Of a DNA stretch of 52,210 nucleotides, positions 23,500-48,822 are shown piece by piece; position 1 is the stretch's first letter; every line of letters begins with the position of its first letter. A model generated the notes under the pieces. It was not told the DNA's origin and did not search any database. It saw only the letters and a program-made list of their open reading frames with translations. Position numbers and translations under genes: made by a program. Where the stretch lies: the IMG/VR virus record IMGVR_UViG_3300044515_000086, positions 1 to 52,210 of that record; one strand, given 5' to 3'. The DNA comes from a virus.

Positions 23500-25104
23500 T
23501 TACCTCTTGCCCGGTCGATGACGGGGACCTAAATCAATCTTGAAACCACCGCCAGGTCCTGCGCGATGTCCACGTTGGGGGATGTACTGCTCGCGCCCGA
23601 ATTGCCCGGGCCCAGCCATCGGAGCTAAACCTCGAAGCCCAGCGCTCCAGGCGAGCACCACCGCATCGCCTTTGTCGGGCGAATGACCCAAGAGCTTCAC
23701 GACCTCGTCCTTCTCGAGGACCTTGATGCCGCGAGCGACCACCTCGTAGGTGAGCACGGTCAGATCGCTTACGAGCTCTGGGTCCGGCGGCAACGCGATG
23801 GGCGAGCCGCCTAACTGATCCGGATCCAGGGCTTCGCGAAACAGCCAGTACACTTCCGAGCGCTTGTTGACGAAGGCGAGCTTTTTATCTCGCGTACGCT
23901 TCATCGATTTGTTGGCGCCCTTGTGCACCTGCACCGGGATCTCGTTCTCAACCAGGGTCGTGTACGTGCCGCCGCCGTAGCCGCCGCCCATGTCGAGCAC
24001 GATGTCGGCCGAGTCGCGTCGAGCTGCGACCACGTGCCCCGCGCCTTGGGATCCGAGTTTGACCTCGATGCCAGGAATGCATTTCAACGGCGCATACCAG
24101 CCATCATTGCGGGTCGCGATCGTGAAGCGATCTTTGCCGCCCTCCGCCGGATCCACGCCCAGCGCACACATCGGCACGCCTTGCGGCGGCTGCGCTGTCC
24201 AACGCTTTTGCGCCTCCAGCACCCAGCCGGTCGGGACCACTTGGAAGGGGTGATCTTTCAGTGCCTTGTCGAACCGGCCGCCCCGATACGCATCGCGCAG
24301 CTCCTTGGGCAACTGCGCGAGCGTCGCATCGTACTCATCGCGATCCAGGTCCGGATTATCCTCAAGCCGCGCGCGAATGAAGGTGCGGCTCTTGGCGTAG
24401 GTTTCCTTCCCATCCACCACGTAAGGCCCGGGTCCATCGACGTCGATCTCGGTGTCATCGTCCTGGCGCAGATACCAGCGCAGCTCGCCGTCCTTGGCCG
24501 GGTTTGGATGACGCGGGTCGAGCCACGCACTCCACCGCTTAATGACCCACAGGCCTTTCGCTCTGGTCGGCGGATTCCCGGTGCAGACGATGCGGGAGCG
24601 CTGCCCGGGGTAGGTCGAGCGGTTCCACCCGGTGACGAACAGGTACTGGCTCTCCGTGAAATCAGGGATCTCATCGAAGCCGTAGAAGTCGCGCGCCTTG
24701 CCCTTGTGGTGCTCTTTGTCCTTCTCGTTAGGTAACCCAAAGAAATTGAAGCGCTGCTCACCGCTGCGCCAAGTCGCCTGCTGATCGTTCCAGCCACTCG
24801 TCGAGCCCACGATCTCGCACAGTCGAGTCCCTAAGGCCCGGGCATCATCCTTGAACTCGCGAAAGATGCTCGCCTGCCTGTGATCGTTGAGCGCAAGTCC
24901 CAACACCAGATCCGACTTGCCCCCGCCGGCCTCGCCGCCGTAGTACAGCTCATCCGCTTCGGAGTAGTACGCTTCCGTCTGCGGTCCTGGGTTTGGAACC
25001 CAGCGCAGGTGCGCGGTGGCATCGAGCGCCTCCTCCTCGAGCTTCGCGCGCGCCGCCGGCGGCAGCCCCTCAAGTGCCTGCAGGATCTGCTCGAGCTGCT
25101 GCAT
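23500..25104 (-). CDS. terL: Terminase large subunit
   Basis: 534 residues. The ATPase domain has Walker A (GGEAGGGKS, residues 56-64), Walker B with the catalytic Glu (FYGFDEIPDF, about 140-149) and the coupling motif VCTGNPP. The C-terminal RNase H-like nuclease has acidic positions in LGVDPAEGGKD, VLDMGGG and KGDAVVLAWSAG. It powers DNA packaging and cuts the concatemer. It follows the small subunit in the operon, after two intervening genes. Confidence 0.92.
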   Translation of the reverse strand: MQQLEQILQALEGLPPAARAKLEEEALDATAHLRWVPNPGPQTEAYYSEADELYYGGEAGGGKSDLVLGLALNDHRQASIFREFKDDARALGTRLCEIVGSTSGWNDQQATWRSGEQRFNFFGLPNEKDKEHHKGKARDFYGFDEIPDFTESQYLFVTGWNRSTYPGQRSRIVCTGNPPTRAKGLWVIKRWSAWLDPRHPNPAKDGELRWYLRQDDDTEIDVDGPGPYVVDGKETYAKSRTFIRARLEDNPDLDRDEYDATLAQLPKELRDAYRGGRFDKALKDHPFQVVPTGWVLEAQKRWTAQPPQGVPMCALGVDPAEGGKDRFTIATRNDGWYAPLKCIPGIEVKLGSQGAGHVVAARRDSADIVLDMGGGYGGGTYTTLVENEIPVQVHKGANKSMKRTRDKKLAFVNKRSEVYWLFREALDPDQLGGSPIALPPDPELVSDLTVLTYEVVARGIKVLEKDEVVKLLGHSPDKGDAVVLAWSAGLRGLAPMAGPGQFGREQYIPQRGHRAGPGGGFKIDLGPRHRPGKR

Positions 25105-40952: not shown

Positions 40953-42485
40953 ATGACCATCGCATCCACAGCCGACGGCACCCGTGCCCTCTCGATCGGG
41001 GAGTTGAAAGTATCGACCACCGCCGGCCAGGCCGAACGGCGCAAGCATTTCGATAAGGTTGAACTCGATCAGCTCGCCAAGTCGATCAAGAAAGTGGGTG
41101 TGCTCTCGCCCATCCTCGCTCGCCCGGTCAACGGACACTTCGAGATCGTGTTTGGCGAACGGAGATTCATCGCCGCGAAACTCGCCGGCCTCACCGCGAT
41201 CGACGTCTCCGTGCGAACTTTAAGCGATGAGCAGGTGCTCGAGGTGCAGCTGATTGAGAACCTGCAGCGCGAGGGGCTGCATCCGCTCGCGGAGGCGGAA
41301 GGCTACGAGCAGCTGCAGGGGTACGGGCATTCTGCCGAGGAGATCGCCGACAAGCTCGGCAAATCGAAGGCGTACGTTTACGGCCGTATGAAACTGCTGG
41401 CGCTCGGGCCCGCGGCCCGCGAGGCCTTCTACCGCGGCGAATTGAACGCATCGACCGCGTTGCTGCTCGCCAGGATCCCCGTCGAGTCCCTGCAGTCGGA
41501 TGCCCTGAAGGCGATTACCGGCAAGCGCTGGAATAACGAAGTGATGTCGTTCCGCGAGGCCGCCGAGGTCATCCGGCGCGATTACATGACCAATCTGTCG
41601 GACGCAGGATTCCCCACCGAGGATGCGACGCTGGTGGCGGCCGCGGGCGCATGCGGCGCATGCCCGAAGCGCACGGGCAATCAGGCTGAACTCTTCGACG
41701 ATGTGAAAAGTGGGAACGTATGCACTGACCCGATTTGCTTCAAAGCCAAGCGCCAGGCGCACGCCGCGCGGGCGATCGCGCAGGCGAAGGAAGACGGGCA
41801 GCAGGTAATCACCGGCGCTGAGGCGAAGAAGATCATCCCATGGCAGCACAGTCTGGCGACGGGCTACTCAAAGCTGTCGGACGTATGCTACGACGACAAG
41901 AAGCAACGCACATACGCGCAGCTGCTCGGCAAGGACTTCAAGCCGACGCTCGTCCAAAACCCCGAGACCGGCGTGTTGGTCAAAGTCGTCACGCCGGCCG
42001 CCGCCAAGCAGGCGAGGCTCGACAACAATATCAAGCCGCCGACCTACAGCCAGCCGACGCGCGGCGCGAAATCCGGTGGGACGTCAAATAAAGCCGAGAC
42101 CGCATTTCGCGAGGCTCTATTTCTCGCCATTCACGCCAAAGCGCCGAAGAAGTTGAGCCGCCACGTGCTCGAGACGATCATCGAACACGAGCTGGATGCC
42201 ATCGGTGAACTGCCCAATGTTCTGACGAAGGCCTGGGGATGGGATGCCGACACGCACAACCTCGAGAGCCTCACCGAGCCGCAGCTAAACCAGTTCCTGT
42301 TCGAGCTGTGCGTTGTCGAGGAGCTCAACATGTCGGCGTACGCGCAGACGCCGAAGCTGCTCAATCTCGCCAAGTCGATGAAGATCGACACGAAGAAGAT
42401 TCGCAAGGCTATCGCCGCCGCGGCCAAGCCGGCGACGAAGGCGAAAGCGGCGCCTAAGAAAAAGTCGACCACCAAAGGAAAATAA
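40953..42485 (+). CDS. ParB-like protein, 510 aa
   Basis: The N-terminal ParB nuclease-like fold holds GERRFIAAKLAGL (arginine-rich box II) and LIENLQREGLHPLAEAEGY, then an HTH (EEIADKLGKSKAYVYGRMKL). A Cys-rich patch (GACGACPKR, CTDPICF) and a Lys/Ala-rich end follow, as in larger ParB-like phage proteins. There is no ParA partner nearby, so plasmid-style segregation is unlikely; gene control, nicking or anti-defence are options. It directly precedes the DGR. Confidence 0.75.
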   Translation: MTIASTADGTRALSIGELKVSTTAGQAERRKHFDKVELDQLAKSIKKVGVLSPILARPVNGHFEIVFGERRFIAAKLAGLTAIDVSVRTLSDEQVLEVQLIENLQREGLHPLAEAEGYEQLQGYGHSAEEIADKLGKSKAYVYGRMKLLALGPAAREAFYRGELNASTALLLARIPVESLQSDALKAITGKRWNNEVMSFREAAEVIRRDYMTNLSDAGFPTEDATLVAAAGACGACPKRTGNQAELFDDVKSGNVCTDPICFKAKRQAHAARAIAQAKEDGQQVITGAEAKKIIPWQHSLATGYSKLSDVCYDDKKQRTYAQLLGKDFKPTLVQNPETGVLVKVVTPAAAKQARLDNNIKPPTYSQPTRGAKSGGTSNKAETAFREALFLAIHAKAPKKLSRHVLETIIEHELDAIGELPNVLTKAWGWDADTHNLESLTEPQLNQFLFELCVVEELNMSAYAQTPKLLNLAKSMKIDTKKIRKAIAAAAKPATKAKAAPKKKSTTKGK

Positions 42486-43097
42486 ATGAACGCAGTATCG
42501 ATCGATATTCCGCCGGCCGTGGCCGCACTCCTCGAGGGCGGCTTCTATGCCGGCCGCATTCTCATTGCGGGCGTTCTCTATGCGCTGATCGTGGCACCCA
42601 AAGCTGAGGGTGAGCGCAAGCCGGGTGTGTGGTCCAAATCGGAGAAATCGATTGCCGGTGCCATGAGCTGGAATGACGGCCTGGCGAACACCGGCGCGAT
42701 GTCCGATGCGGGAAGCGCGCTCGCGAAGTGGGCGCAGGGCCTCACCATCGGCGGCTATTCGGATTGGTACCTGCCGGCGCTCGATGAGCTCGAGCTCTGC
42801 TATCGATATCTGAAACCGACCGCGGAGCCAAGCTATCTTTGGAGCCGATCGGGCATCAACGTGAGCGCGGTCCCACCGACGTATCCGTATGTCGCGGATT
42901 CCCCGGCGCAGACCGAACACGAGATCTTCCGCGCCGGCGGCGCGGAGGCCTTCGCCGATGAAATTTACTGGAGTTCGACGCAGCACGCCTCTGGCAGCAA
43001 CTACGCCTGGAGCCAGCATTTCAGCAACGGCTGCCAGAGCTACTGGTTCAAGGGCCATCACTTCAGGGCTCGCGTCGTCCGCAGATTAGCCATTTAA
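42486..43097 (+). CDS. DGR target protein 1 (C-type-lectin-like, carries VR1)
   Basis: 203 residues. After an N-terminal helical part with a short hydrophobic segment (GGFYAGRILIAGVLYALIVA) comes a DUF1566/CLec-like domain: WNDGLANTGAMSDAGSALAK, GGYSDWYLPALDELELCYR, then YWSSTQHASGSNYAW and the FRARVVRRL end. The last 35 residues are coded by VR1. The fold tolerates mutable surface residues and binds ligands. ATG follows AAAGGA and immediately abuts the parB stop. Its ligand is unknown. Confidence 0.88.
   Translation: MNAVSIDIPPAVAALLEGGFYAGRILIAGVLYALIVAPKAEGERKPGVWSKSEKSIAGAMSWNDGLANTGAMSDAGSALAKWAQGLTIGGYSDWYLPALDELELCYRYLKPTAEPSYLWSRSGINVSAVPPTYPYVADSPAQTEHEIFRAGGAEAFADEIYWSSTQHASGSNYAWSQHFSNGCQSYWFKGHHFRARVVRRLAI
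42978..43086 (+). repeat. DGR variable repeat 1 (VR1)
   Basis: 109 bp aligned to TR 44196-44304 without gaps. Thirteen positions differ and every one is an A in TR (to G, T or C). The rest, including the last 24 bp (TCAGGGCTCGCGTCG start), is identical. The 3' end diverges right after GCAGAT, marking the IMH boundary. Confidence 0.95.
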
Positions 43098-43136: not shown

Positions 43137-43640
43137 ATGAACGTGACCAAGAACGGCATCACCATCACCATCTCGGACGCTGAGGTCGTCAAGATGGCGC
43201 TCGAGCGCCTGAACGACGCACCGAGCCCCGTCGCCTTTGTCCACCTCGAATCCGACGTCCCTCGCATTGGCGAACACTGGTCGACTCAGGGCGGCATCTA
43301 TGCAGGCGTGGCGCGTGGCCGCGATGGTGCGCCGGACTATCACCTGATCGTAGGCCCTGAGTTCGACGGTCAAACGGACTGGGACGGCGCCGGCAAGTGG
43401 GCGGCCGGCGTGACAGTCCATGGGTTTTCTGACTTCGCGCTGCCGTTTCGCAAGGAGCAGGCGCTCAGCTTCGGGAACGTGCCCGAGCTATTTAAGGAGG
43501 AGTACTACTGGTCGTGCGAGCAGCGCGCCTCTAGCAGCAACTACGCCTGGGACCAGCATTTCAGCAACGGCTACCAGACCACCTGGTACAAGGACGATCA
43601 CATCAGGGCTCGCGTCGTCCGCAGATTAGTAATTCAGTAA
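43137..43640 (+). CDS. DGR target protein 2 (C-type-lectin-like, carries VR2)
   Basis: 167 residues. The start NVTKNGITITISDAEVVK is followed by a CLec-like domain: HWSTQGGIYAGVARGRDGA, VHGFSDFALPFRKEQAL, YYWSCEQRASSSNYAW and the RARVVRRL end. VR2 codes the C-terminal 35 or so residues. SD AAAGGGG at 8 bases. It shares the C-terminal fold with target 1 but the N-terminal halves differ, suggesting two ligand-binding partners or positions fed by the same TR. Confidence 0.88.
   Translation: MNVTKNGITITISDAEVVKMALERLNDAPSPVAFVHLESDVPRIGEHWSTQGGIYAGVARGRDGAPDYHLIVGPEFDGQTDWDGAGKWAAGVTVHGFSDFALPFRKEQALSFGNVPELFKEEYYWSCEQRASSSNYAWDQHFSNGYQTTWYKDDHIRARVVRRLVIQ
43520..43626 (+). repeat. DGR variable repeat 2 (VR2)
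   Basis: 107 bp aligned to TR 44198-44304. Nine positions differ and all are A in TR. Two residue positions differ from VR1, which shows independent mutagenesis of the copies. The last 26 bp are identical to TR and VR1. Confidence 0.95.
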
Positions 43641-43667: not shown

Positions 43668-44027
43668 ATGGCCATCCATACCAAGTTACCGATCTACAAA
43701 GTCGCCTATGACCTCCTGAGCGTCGCCGTGGACTATGTGCAGAACATGCCACGGGACTTCAAGGCGGCCATCGGCGGCCGAGTGCGCGATCTGTGCGTCG
43801 ATATCGTCCTGTCGATCTTCAAGGCCAATTGCGCGGCCGAGAAGACCCCGTACCTCGATCTGCTGCTCGAGCAGGTCGAGGAGCTGCAGCTGCTCCTGCG
43901 GCTTTGCCAGGACAAGCGATTCATCTCAAAGCCGCAGTACGCGGCCGCGGTGGAGTTGACGAACAGCGTCGGTCGGCAGGCGAACGGATGGAGGAAACAC
44001 TTTGCAGCAGCATCGCCCGTTACCTGA
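43668..44027 (+). CDS. avd: DGR accessory variability determinant, Avd-type four-helix protein
   Basis: 119 residues, all helical, with the pattern of bAvd-family four-helix bundles (IYKVAYDLLSVAVDYVQNMP, VRDLCVDIVLSIFKAN, LLLEQVEELQLLLRLCQDKR, ELTNSVGRQANGW). Avd forms a pentamer that binds RT and template RNA and is needed for mutagenic homing. It lies between the targets and the TR, as in Bordetella phage BPP-1. Confidence 0.88.
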   Translation: MAIHTKLPIYKVAYDLLSVAVDYVQNMPRDFKAAIGGRVRDLCVDIVLSIFKANCAAEKTPYLDLLLEQVEELQLLLRLCQDKRFISKPQYAAAVELTNSVGRQANGWRKHFAAASPVT

Positions 44028-45420
44028 TCGTCAAGGCGGTCCGGTCAGTGCGACGATTAATCTGGTCGCGCCGCTGGCATCCACAGCCACCGACAAGCGC
44101 ATCCGGGATATCGCCGGTCGTCCCACGATCCGGAGTCGATCCCGCGCAGTTTCCCCACTGAGAGTTCGGTGGGGCGACATCGATAGCGCGAACCTACGCA
44201 GCACGCCTCTAGCAGCAACAACGCCTGGAACCAGAATTTCAGCAACGGCAACCAGAACAACTGGAACAAGGACAATCACATCAGGGCTCGCGTCGTCCGC
44301 AGATAATCATGCAAGGGAAGGCCATGCCGATTTTTCCTTCTTGGAGCTCACGCAAGCCTATTTCGACTGCCGCGAGCACAAGCGCAACACCCGATCCGCC
44401 CTCGCCTTCGAGCAGAACCTAGAACACAATCTGCTCCGGTTGTGGGATGACCTGCAATCGGACGCCTATCGCCCAGGCCCATCGATCTGCTTCGTCATCA
44501 CACGCCCAAAGCCGCGGGAGGTGTGGGCCGCCAACTTCCGCGATCGCATCGTGCACCATCTGCTCTATAACCGGATCGCGCCACGCTTCCACCGAGCCTT
44601 CATCGCGGATTCCTGCGCCTGCATTCCTGGCCGCGGCACCCTCTACGCTGCGAAGCGTCTCGAGGCCAAGGTGCGCAGCATCACCCAGAATTGGCAGCGG
44701 CCTGCGTTCTACCTTAAATGCGACCTCGCGAACTTCTTCGTCAGCATCGACAAGCGCATCGTCCGGGATCTGCTCGCGCCCAAGGTTACTGAAGCCTGGT
44801 GGCTGCGCCTCGCCGAATCGATCCTGTTTCACGACCCGCGCTCGAAGGTCGAGCTGCGCGGACATCGAGAGCGCCTCGCGCTCGTGCCGGCCCACAAGAG
44901 CCTCTTCAATCAGGTCCCGGGGAAGGGGCTGCCGATCGGCAACCTCTCCTCGCAGTTCTTTGCGAACGTGCTGCTCGATTCCCTCGATCAGTACGTCAAA
45001 CAGAAGATAGGCGCGGCGTACTACATCCGCTACGTCGATGATTTCCTGCTGCTGCACGAATCGGCGCAATGGTTGAACGCCGTTCGGGCGGACATCGAGG
45101 CGCATCTTAAGACGCTTGGGCTGCGGCTGAATCCCACCAAGACGATCCTGCAGCCGATCGAACGTGGGATTGACTTCGTCGGCCAGGTGATCAAGCCGTG
45201 GCGGCGTACGCTGCGCCGGCGCACGTACCGCGACGCGCTTCACCGAGTCGCAACGATTACGAACGCCGATCTCTTTCAGACCGCCAACAGCTACTTCGGG
45301 CTGCTACGCCAGGCGACGCACAGCCGCCGCGATCGGATGCGACTCGCGAAGGTCATTGGCCGCCGCGGCCGCGCGGTGGATCTGGCGCTCACCAAAACCT
45401 ATCGCGGGAATTTTCTTTAG
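44002..45420 (+). CDS. DGR reverse transcriptase
   Basis: Retron/DGR-type RT core from about 44338 on: ELTQAYFDCREHKRNTRS, LRLWDDLQSDAYRP, FLKCDLANFFVSID (catalytic D), GLPIGNLSSQFFAN (DGR-type motif), YVDD at 45031-45042, and a thumb with LNPTKTI. It reverse-transcribes TR RNA with adenine errors. No ATG or GTG lies in frame upstream of the core; the TTG at 44002, seven bases after GGAGG, would run through the TR, and TTG 44341 is a second option. ATG at 44324 is one base out of frame. Confidence 0.9.
   Translation: MQQHRPLPDRQGGPVSATINLVAPLASTATDKRIRDIAGRPTIRSRSRAVSPLRVRWGDIDSANLRSTPLAATTPGTRISATATRTTGTRTITSGLASSADNHAREGHADFSFLELTQAYFDCREHKRNTRSALAFEQNLEHNLLRLWDDLQSDAYRPGPSICFVITRPKPREVWAANFRDRIVHHLLYNRIAPRFHRAFIADSCACIPGRGTLYAAKRLEAKVRSITQNWQRPAFYLKCDLANFFVSIDKRIVRDLLAPKVTEAWWLRLAESILFHDPRSKVELRGHRERLALVPAHKSLFNQVPGKGLPIGNLSSQFFANVLLDSLDQYVKQKIGAAYYIRYVDDFLLLHESAQWLNAVRADIEAHLKTLGLRLNPTKTILQPIERGIDFVGQVIKPWRRTLRRRTYRDALHRVATITNADLFQTANSYFGLLRQATHSRRDRMRLAKVIGRRGRAVDLALTKTYRGNFL
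44196..44304 (+). repeat. DGR template repeat (TR)
   Basis: Invariant source copy for VR1 and VR2. It carries AAC/AAT codons at the positions that vary, as expected of adenine-directed diversification. It ends at GCAGAT followed by AATC, where the VRs read TAG. It lies between avd and the RT core and inside the RT reading frame as extended to TTG 44002. Confidence 0.95.
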
Positions 45421-45861
45421 ATGCCGATCCGCCCCGAAAACCTCGCTCGCTACCCTGCTGACTGGCAGCAGATCCGGGAGCGGATCCGCAAGCGCGCCGG
45501 CAACCAGTGTGAGGAGTGCGGCGTCGCGAACTACGCGCTCGGCGGGCGCCTGCGCGACGGCACTTGGTATAAGGCACTCCCCCTCGGGGACAACGGCCTG
45601 GCGCTGCAGTGGCCGGCGGCTGGCAGCTGGGCATGGTGCGAGCGATTCGGTCATCACATGATGCTGCGCATCGTCAAGATTGTTTGCACGACTGCGCACC
45701 TCGATCACGTTCCGGAGCATTGCTGGGACGACAACCTGCGCTTCTGGTGCCAGCGATGCCATCTGCGTTACGACCACGCAGAGCACCAGCGCCATGCCTA
45801 CGAGACCCGGCGCGCCGGCCGCGCGATCGAGATGTTCCCAACACAGGAGTCAACGGGATGA
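45421..45861 (+). CDS. HNH nuclease downstream of the DGR RT
   Basis: 146 residues. HNH elements are complete: C30-C33 (NQCEECG), catalytic TAHLDHVPEH (H93-H96), DDNLRFWCQRCHLRYD (N105, C110, C113, H114). Its ATG is the base after the RT stop, so it is probably co-expressed with the DGR. Third HNH protein here. It might act in retrohoming (a nick at the target) or be an unrelated passenger; I have no direct evidence. Confidence 0.8.
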   Translation: MPIRPENLARYPADWQQIRERIRKRAGNQCEECGVANYALGGRLRDGTWYKALPLGDNGLALQWPAAGSWAWCERFGHHMMLRIVKIVCTTAHLDHVPEHCWDDNLRFWCQRCHLRYDHAEHQRHAYETRRAGRAIEMFPTQESTG

Positions 45862-46619: not shown

Positions 46620-46975
46620 GTGTAATGACCGCATCGGACCATCGGCGCATCGAGGAACTCGCGGAGAAGCGGTTCAGCGTCGGCCGGATCGCTCAACTGA
46701 TCGGCCGCAACAAATCAACGGTGAATTGGTACATGTACTGCAACGGACTGCGCGCGCCGAAGAAGCTCGAAAAGCCGATCACGTATGTGCGCGGCGGCGT
46801 TCGCGTACATCGGTTTACCGACGAAGAGGACACCTTTATCGAGGCGTTGCGGATCCAGGGATGCACGCCAGAGGCAATCGCCGGTCATGCATCCGCCAGG
46901 TTCGGCACGGAACGTAAACACCATTCAATTCGCTGCCGCCTCAAGATGCTGGCCGCCAGGGAACTCGCGGAATGA
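46616..46975 (+). CDS. Helix-turn-helix DNA-binding protein, 119 aa
   Basis: The first half has an HTH of the Hin/homeodomain type: HRRIEELAEKRFSVGRIAQL then GRNKSTVNWYMYCNG. The second half has a Myb/SANT-like segment (FTDEEDTFIEALRIQG, HHSIRCRLKM). Two DNA-binding segments in tandem suggest a transcription factor or nuclease partner. The ATG at 46616 overlaps the previous stop; an in-frame longer form is rejected. Confidence 0.6.
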   Translation: MSVMTASDHRRIEELAEKRFSVGRIAQLIGRNKSTVNWYMYCNGLRAPKKLEKPITYVRGGVRVHRFTDEEDTFIEALRIQGCTPEAIAGHASARFGTERKHHSIRCRLKMLAARELAE

Positions 46976-48822
46976 GCAAGATGATCTTAGGTGCCTGGTC
47001 GGACGGCGGTGATGTAAAGCTCGACCTCGCGCGCTTGCTGCTTACTCGTATGTTGATCCAAGCGAATAGCGGCAACGGCAAGAGCTGGGCGCTGCGTAGG
47101 CTTTTCGAACGCGCCGCGGGCCTGGTGCAGCAGCTCATCGTGGATCCGGAAGGGGAATTCGCGAGCCTGCGCGAGAAGCATGATTTCGTGATCATCGCGG
47201 CGAACGGTGGCGATGCTGTCGCGCATCCTCGCACCGCCGCGTTGCTCGCAATCAGGCTCTTGGAGACCGAAGCTTCTGCCGTTCTTGATATCTCGGAGTT
47301 AAAGGCGGCCGACCGTCATACCTTCGTGCGGCTGCTGTTCGAGTCCTTGATCGATGCGCCTAAGAACCTGCGCCATCCGGTCCTGGTCGCCCTCGACGAG
47401 GCGCAAATGTTCGCTCCGGAGAAGGGCCAGGGCGAGAGCGAGGCGACTGATTCGGTGATCGACATGGCGACGCGCGGCCGCAAGCGAGGCCTGTGCCTGA
47501 TAGCGGCAACGCAGCGCATCAGCATGTTCCACAAGGGCGTCGCCGCGGAGCTGAAAAACCGCATGATCGGCGGGACGAGCCTGGACGTCGACGTGAAGCG
47601 TGCGGCGTTCGACTTAGGAATGCCGCCGAAGGATGCGCTGGTGGTCTTACGCGCGCTCGAGCCCGGGCACTTCTATGCGTTCGGTCCCGCATTGGCTCAG
47701 CTTGAGCCGCGGGAATTTGTTGTGGGTGATGTTGAGACCAGTCACCCGAAGGTTGGTCACCGGCAGGCGGCGCCGCCGAAGCCCACCGCGGCGATCGTCG
47801 CGCTGCTACCAAAACTCGCGGATCTCGCAAAGGAAGCCGAGGAGCGCGCGCGCAGCATCGATGACTTGAAGCGCGAGCTCGCCCAGGCCCGCCGCGAGCT
47901 AACCGTCGCCAAGAAACAGCAGCCCGCGCCCACGCCGGCGCCCGTCATCAAAGGAGATCCAGCGGCCGAGCGCCGGGCCGCGGCGCAGATTACAAAATTA
48001 ACCGCGGCCATCGAGGAACTCATGAAATTCATCGTGACGGTAACGGCCAAGGATTTCGAGGGCACCGCTGGCATCGACGTCGAAGCCATGCGCAAGGCGA
48101 TCGAGGCAGCTGTGGAACAGTCTCGTCGGCTCGTCGAGAAATCGATGGATGTGCGCAACGCGCAGTTGAAGTCTCTGCAGTCGGAAGCCTCGAAGATCGT
48201 CACACGCGTGCGCAAGCTGCTCGATTCTCAAGAGGTCAAGATCGAACTTGAGGTAAAGAAGAATGCGCCGTTCACAGTGGCGCCCACGCCAACGCGCGCG
48301 CCGGCGGCGCCGCGGCCGCCACCTAAATCAAATGGCGCGTCCGAATCTGGTCTGAGTACTCCGCGCCAGCTGATATTGGATAAGTTGGCATGGCTCGAAT
48401 CGATGGACCTGTATCCGGCTCCTAAGGAAACGCTGGCTGCGGTCTGCGGCGTAAGCCCCACGTCCGGCGGCTACTTCAATAATTTAGGTGCGCTGCGCTC
48501 ATCAGGCCACATCGATTATCCGCAGCCCGGCATGGTGGGATTTACTGATGCCGGTCGCGCGGCCTCCAATCCTCCGGATGGCGATGGTCGCGAAGTGCAC
48601 GAGCATTGGCTCGATATCGTCAGCACTCCACAGCGGGCGATCCTGGCCGCGCTCATCGCTAAGCACCCCAACGCGATGGGGAAGGATGAGCTCGCCGGCG
48701 AGATCGGCGTCTCATCGACGAGCGGCGGGTATTTCAACAATCTCGGACGACTGCGCACGCTTGGAGCTATCGACTATCCCTCGCCCGGTCAAGTAAATCT
48801 CACGCAGTACGTGATGCCGTGA
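46972..48822 (+). CDS. HerA-like ATPase with duplicated C-terminal domain
   Basis: 616 residues. N-terminal HerA/FtsK-type ATPase: Walker A ANSGNGKSW (about 31-39), Walker B VALDEAQMFAP, and ATQRISMF as sensor. A coiled-coil linker (about 285-430) leads to two copies of a winged-helix-like repeat (TSGGYFNNLGALRSSG and TSGGYFNNLGRLRTLG). HerA-type motors pump or unwind DNA with nucleases; phage versions serve packaging or anti-defence. ATG overlaps the HTH gene stop. Confidence 0.8.
   Translation: MSKMILGAWSDGGDVKLDLARLLLTRMLIQANSGNGKSWALRRLFERAAGLVQQLIVDPEGEFASLREKHDFVIIAANGGDAVAHPRTAALLAIRLLETEASAVLDISELKAADRHTFVRLLFESLIDAPKNLRHPVLVALDEAQMFAPEKGQGESEATDSVIDMATRGRKRGLCLIAATQRISMFHKGVAAELKNRMIGGTSLDVDVKRAAFDLGMPPKDALVVLRALEPGHFYAFGPALAQLEPREFVVGDVETSHPKVGHRQAAPPKPTAAIVALLPKLADLAKEAEERARSIDDLKRELAQARRELTVAKKQQPAPTPAPVIKGDPAAERRAAAQITKLTAAIEELMKFIVTVTAKDFEGTAGIDVEAMRKAIEAAVEQSRRLVEKSMDVRNAQLKSLQSEASKIVTRVRKLLDSQEVKIELEVKKNAPFTVAPTPTRAPAAPRPPPKSNGASESGLSTPRQLILDKLAWLESMDLYPAPKETLAAVCGVSPTSGGYFNNLGALRSSGHIDYPQPGMVGFTDAGRAASNPPDGDGREVHEHWLDIVSTPQRAILAALIAKHPNAMGKDELAGEIGVSSTSGGYFNNLGRLRTLGAIDYPSPGQVNLTQYVMP

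Follow-up and report, generated by a model that had tools for sequence, protein, structure and literature searches.

The rules that govern the RNAs of diversity-generating retroelements (DGRs) have been worked out mainly for Bordetella phage BPP-1. The locus described here has a template repeat (TR) that lies in the reading frame of the reverse transcriptase (RT) and is followed by no spacer. It is part of the 52,210-nt viral sequence IMGVR_UViG_3300044515_000086, which was analyzed at its full length (hereafter the window). The window belongs to a temperate phage that carries a two-target DGR with the gene order target-target-avd-TR-RT (Table 1), and the set at the locus is complete: two Lcl_C/C-type-lectin targets, avd, the TR and a DGR-type RT. 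The presence of a DGR in a temperate phage and the A-only pattern of TR/VR differences are in themselves of an already known, textbook kind.

Table 1. Features of the DGR and of the adjoining gene (window coordinates)
Feature	Position	Strand	Basis and remarks
Target gene 1, 203 aa, Lcl_C with C-type-lectin-like fold	42486..43097	+	Pfam Lcl_C E 1e-12; VR1 C-terminal
Variable repeat VR1	42978..43088	+	vs TR: 13 differences/109 bp, 14/111 bp, all at A
Target gene 2, 167 aa, Lcl_C-like	43137..43640	+	phrog_4245 E 3e-14; VR2 C-terminal
Variable repeat VR2	43520..43628	+	vs TR: 9 differences/107 bp, 10/109 bp, all at A
avd accessory gene, 119 aa	43668..44027	+	bAvd PF22296 E 3e-13; phrog_3206 'Avd protein of DGR' E 1e-31
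Shine-Dalgarno-like GGAGG	43990..43994	+	7 nt ahead of TTG 44002, candidate RT start
Reverse transcriptase frame, 472 aa	44002..45420	+	phrog_1423 E 8e-111; Pfam RVT_1 E 1e-15
RT-15 structured RNA (RF03018), 5′ leader of TR RNA	44011..44198	+	151.7 bits, gathering score 82, model 1-192
Helix 5′ strand GAUUAAUCUG	44055..44064	+	in RT-15; followed by invariant GU
Template repeat TR	44196..44306	+	alignment with VR1/VR2; between avd and RT
Helix 3′ strand CAGAUAAUC	44300..44308	+	at end of TR/VR homology
HNH endonuclease gene	45421..45861	+	phrog_1571 E 3e-21; begins one base past RT stop codon

The preliminary description had reported that VR1 (42978-43086) differs from the TR (44196-44304) at 13 of 109 positions, each of them a template adenine, and an independent ungapped realignment agreed. 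The adenines were changed to T (six sites), G (five) or C (two), and no mismatch at a non-A template base was found in the 109 bp, which include 73 C, G or T positions. Random divergence had been dismissed as an explanation, and this was borne out by the probability that 13 random mismatches would strike nothing but A when 36 of the 109 sites are A (P=9.9e-8). The accompanying statement that the changed codons are of the Asn type holds for eight of the 11 codon changes; the other three are AGC>GGC (Ser>Gly), GAC>GGC (Asp>Gly) and ATC>TTC (Ile>Phe). The homology of VR1 and the TR extends 2 bp further (42978-43088/44196-44306) and includes a 14th A-site difference, at A 44305.

VR2 gave the same picture. 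Its comparison with the TR (43520-43626) revealed nine differences in 107 bp, all at adenines, and the sole non-A difference nearby, at TR position 44197, lies just beyond the VR2 homology. The two variable repeats have some changed sites in common, and many more at which one is unlike the other, a pattern such as separate homing events would leave. Across the related cassettes, 4251 TR/VR mismatches fell on A, compared with 494 on C, G and T together. Mutagenic homing, which the preliminary description had proposed, fits with the other components as well, since the RT is of the DGR family, avd adjoins it, the TR lies between avd and the RT, and both VRs close targets with a C-type-lectin-like fold; on this evidence, mutagenic retrohoming is the supported reading of the locus. 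No stable inverted-repeat hairpin was detected in the 61 nt past VR1 or VR2, whereas BPP-1 has one just after its VR, an accessory feature that is not universal among DGRs.

The product of target gene 1 was modeled by AlphaFold2 with a mean pLDDT of 91.8, and the best PDB match of the model was 8q4e, the C-terminal domain of Legionella Lcl (E 4.5e-4), with C-type lectins next. Together with the Lcl_C domain, this identifies a C-terminal VR in a target of C-type-lectin fold, as expected of a DGR. The Pfam Lcl_C match of target 2 (E 3e-5) is under the curated cut-off. Related cassettes contain from one to three targets. Homologues of target 1 are also present in the Pseudomonas phages Medea1, Aurca01 and PMBT3 (H42-H48), outside the 40 best RT hits, and may be targets without a DGR of their own. 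The RT is likewise of DGR type: it shares 66% identity with the RT annotated in the DGR of phage Magia, and its best family is the DGR-type phrog_1423 and not a retron-type one. Its conserved part starts at approx. 44317, and the N-terminal part of the frame overlaps RT-15 and the TR in frame. Residues 1-108 of the 472-aa reading were modeled as disordered (pLDDT approx. 27).

The plus strand of the window also carries integrase, RecE-like exonuclease, ParB-like and SbcC-like genes; the head, portal and tail genes are on the minus strand, and both targets therefore sit apart from the tail genes. The HNH endonuclease gene was considered as a DGR component and rejected: a homologue is found near the DGR in only three of approx. 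180 related cassettes (phage Magia and two others), and the gene is therefore probably a passenger, a neighbor outside the DGR. On the other side, a 510-aa ParB-like gene (40953-42485) stops at the base preceding the start of target 1, and it may share a transcript with the DGR. Further along the early region, positions 46972-48822 encode a 616-aa HerA/DUF87-like ATPase that also resembles a terminase large subunit family; a second terminase-like gene is located at 23500-25104 on the minus strand.

Relatives collected by RT homology came to 182 distinct loci, drawn from bacterial genomes, viral contigs and phages with names. A profile search detected RT-15 in 163 of them, and the RT of every carrier was at least 59% identical to that of the window; the same search found no RT-15 in any of the loci with an RT identity to the window of 51% or less. 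When bacterial genomes were searched with the RNA only, 26 RT-15 matches exceeded the cut-off, and a DGR RT adjoined all 26. The window and every relative tested scored above the Rfam RF03018 gathering threshold. In the window, the TR start and the RT-15 3′ end coincide; in nearly all of the 155 relatives that have both RT-15 and a strict TR/VR pair, the two are no more than approx. 5 nt apart. These comparisons show RT-15 as the regular, profile-predicted 5′ neighbor of the TR in this RT lineage. The possibility that RT-15 is a conserved protein-coding domain was ruled out by the lack of codon-position bias in its conservation (179/207/231 for positions 1/2/3) and by the disordered model of the extension. 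Within the RNA, the sequence CUGGU (44062-44066) is near-invariant across the 163 sequences.

A structured spacer of approx. 140 nt, as in BPP-1, is not present in the window, where the TR ends at 44306 and the conserved RT begins at 44317, approx. 10 nt further on. Throughout the RT-15 clade, the TR ends 26-75 nt ahead of a fixed point within the RT core, which therefore leaves no room for a spacer of the BPP-1 type; the TR-RT spacer measures 143-185 nt in 40 BPP-1 relatives. In BPP-1 itself, the spacer recruits bRT-Avd, and an internal adenine of the spacer primes the cDNA (PMC12875486, 2026). The sequence UGGUCAGCC around this priming adenine (A56) is invariant in 40 of the 40 BPP-1 relatives (L267-L324), and UGGUCAGCC resembles the CUGGUCGCGCC core of RT-15; the UGGUC core common to RT-15 and the BPP-1 spacer may be due to chance.

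The sequence AAUCUGG, which the Rfam consensus of RT-15 leaves single-stranded, was found to pair with the 3′ junction of the TR. Across the clade, the 5′ strand of this long-range helix corresponds to UUXAAUCUG of RT-15, and the 3′ strand to CAGAU at the TR end plus the bases that follow. The window is a weak example, in which nine pairs form with A44059 bulged and the outer pairs fit only with this one-base bulge. At the variable position, X and its partner X′ form a standard pair in 94% of the 163 sequences, compared with 45% in shuffles (maximum 56%), and the pair types vary (U-A 70, G-C 46, C-G 26, A-U 5). The two pairs next to X:X′ likewise exceed the shuffles, and the entire helix is 81% paired, as against 28-46% after sliding by 1-3 bases. 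On the RT tree, X:X′ switched between Watson-Crick pairs by double changes 17 times, as against 0-3 times in the slid controls. In an unbiased all-against-all column scan, X:X′ was the second-ranked pair, listed with those of the established RT-15 stem, and it was kept in 10 of 10 loci that were found later by RNA search alone. Plain MFE folding of 44011-44330 did not produce the long-range helix (z -0.98). The covariation shows a helix closing a loop that holds the RT-15 core and the TR. No description of it was found in the searchable literature, a scope outside which the main papers on DGR RNA and RT-15 fall; relative to that literature only, the helix is newly seen.

We also considered whether this is the TR/Sp helix of BPP-1. 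There is a 7-bp match in BPP-1, but it was not kept in the 40 BPP-1 relatives, and because these gave inconsistent matches it was not relied on; any parallel to the BPP-1 spacer is loose. Sister DGRs (L024-L049), whose RTs are 45-58% identical and which have neither RT-15 nor a spacer 3′ of the TR, contain matches of 9-13 bp that connect, at a constant place, a site approx. 200 nt before the TR with the first RT codons. These matches are suggestive and may represent another version of the enclosing helix, though in the deeper set plain Watson-Crick complementarity did not exceed that of shuffles.

The position of the helix is informative with respect to the start of copying. In approx. 300 TR/VR pairs, adenine mutation is free until approx. 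18-19 nt before CAGAU and nearly absent from there up to CAGAU, and TR/VR identity is lost within CAGAU. The helix therefore lies on the boundary at which copying would be expected to start, and we infer from this that RT-15 sets a ribose 2′-OH beside the template end.

The same RNA appears to be translated. On the tree, the distance from the RT-15 3′ end to the RT core changes 52 times, always by a multiple of three, and the same holds for 44 of the 47 changes in the length of the TR-RT linker; the linker is the stronger test of frame, because the frame of the target already forces multiples of three inside the TR. The TR 3′ motifs stand in one frame relative to the RT in 139 of 140 cases, with linkers of 37-67 nt, and many members have no canonical start codon between the TR and the RT core. 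RT-15 is likewise free of stops in this frame in 125 of the 155 members; the other 30 have an RT-frame stop in RT-15 or the TR, followed in every case by a start inside the TR or the linker (e.g. the ATGATG of the Pseudomonas group). The length changes therefore argue that the TR is coding, and RT-15 too in most members, and this frame constraint shows a TR RNA that would also serve as RT coding sequence. In the window, the conserved ATG of RT-15 is AAG and the ATG of the TR is ACG, so TTG 44002, with its GGAGG, is the sole remaining upstream canonical start. Our reading is that the RNA structure is probably primary and that the RT frame is merely kept open through RT-15.

Three other explanations have to be weighed against these data. 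According to one, the DGR is of the ordinary BPP-1 type: RT-15 serves just as a 5′ UTR or as an element that controls translation of the RT, and the RT coding region 3′ of the TR conceals the true priming spacer. RT-15 does span the avd/RT junction and holds candidate RT starts, and BPP-1 and its 40 relatives do have a structured spacer 3′ of the TR. Yet the entropy of fourfold sites at the start of the RT gene (1.41-1.49 bits) matches the mean of the whole gene (1.49), and with variability this flat no conserved RNA or spacer is seen in the coding sequence, so that the concealed spacer was rejected; moreover, covariation with the TR 3′ junction would not be expected of a mere UTR element. We therefore consider this explanation unlikely.

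An equally unlikely alternative is that the RT is not translated through the TR and begins at a non-standard start between the TR and the RT core, the open frame being a by-product of RNA conservation and target codon use. This would agree with the disordered model of the N-terminal extension, with the presence of a start codon in the linker of 28 of the 155 members, and with the lack of codon-level conservation in RT-15 (179/207/231), and the conserved RNA itself places stops in the other frames. It does not explain why a linker of free length changes in steps of three, why the TR 3′ motifs share one frame relative to the RT, or why each of the 30 stops in RT-15 or the TR has a start downstream of it. 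Finally, the TR and VRs might be plain diverged duplicates whose adenine pattern arose by chance or another mutational bias. No support was found for this view, chance would yield the patterns with probabilities of approx. 1e-7 (VR1) and 2e-5 (VR2), and the identical bias recurs in all cassettes found; it can be practically dismissed.

We regard it as very probable that, taken as a whole, the locus is a two-target DGR whose RNA consists of the RT-15 leader and the TR, is closed by the helix, is coding within the TR and would be primed from the RT-15 side. The RT, together with Avd, would copy the TR part of the transcript and misread its adenines, and the cDNA would replace VR1 and VR2 by retrohoming, thereby varying the face on which two small Lcl_C/C-type-lectin proteins bind ligands. 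The functional RNA would be 5′ leader plus TR, in place of the TR plus 3′ spacer of BPP-1. By bringing the invariant CUGGU of RT-15 beside the first copied TR bases, the helix would allow a ribose 2′-OH at CUGGU to prime the cDNA, which would be the job done in BPP-1 by the adenine of the downstream spacer and in retrons by the guanosine of the upstream msr. We infer that RT-15 takes over from the downstream spacer and that it primes cDNA on the 5′ side, in the manner of retrons. Translation and reverse transcription would presumably compete for one RNA, with CUGGU in the priming role. More tentatively, and with somewhat less than even confidence, the whole lineage may carry its priming RNA 5′ of the template, having shifted it there from the 3′ side, giving a retron-like closed RNA with a 2′-OH start near CUGGU, a template translated as the RT start, and competition between ribosomes and RT-Avd.

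The arrangement described here amounts to a second RNA layout for DGRs, in which a precisely placed helix points to a testable priming site. It assigns RT-15, an orphan Rfam family, to the RNA of a DGR, relates DGRs to retrons by layout, and could offer a compact RNA design for DGR-based directed-evolution tools. Gene and DGR finders that require an intergenic TR will mis-call the RTs of the RT-15 clade.

In comparison with BPP-1 (mtd-avd-TR-brt), the window has in common the order target-avd-TR-RT, A-specific TR/VR differences, Avd, and a C-type-lectin target with a C-terminal VR. The two differ in that the BPP-1 TR directly follows avd and is separated from brt by a spacer of 144 nt, whereas in the window approx. 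170 nt, including RT-15, precede the TR and there is no spacer. Furthermore, the window has two targets, which are small stand-alone proteins encoded on the strand opposite to the tail genes, and its TR lies in the RT frame. The closest named systems, Burkholderia phage Magia and Pseudomonas phage Cruim01, have RTs of the same family (66% and 63% identity, respectively), RT-15 upstream of the TR, two or three VRs and a recombination-gene neighborhood. The Magia paper reported a potential DGR, proposing candidates for its target and IMH without mention of a template (PMC7883833); the Cruim01 record bears the RT-15 label, and the helix and the RT overlap are described in neither the Magia nor the Cruim01 record.

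Overlap of the TR with the RT ORF was an annotation class in a 2012 survey, which considered the arrangement irrelevant and separate transcription of the TR and RT RNAs probable (PMC3521204); here, in contrast, the overlap is frame-constrained throughout the clade. Retrons are msr-msd-RT transcripts primed from a guanosine 2′-OH (PMC8867640, review). Unlike them, the window has an RT and Avd of DGR type and a template that would home into target genes, and the likeness, which is one of layout and covarying helix only, consists of a structured RNA 5′ of the template, an RT directly downstream, and a helix between that structured RNA and the template's 3′ end.
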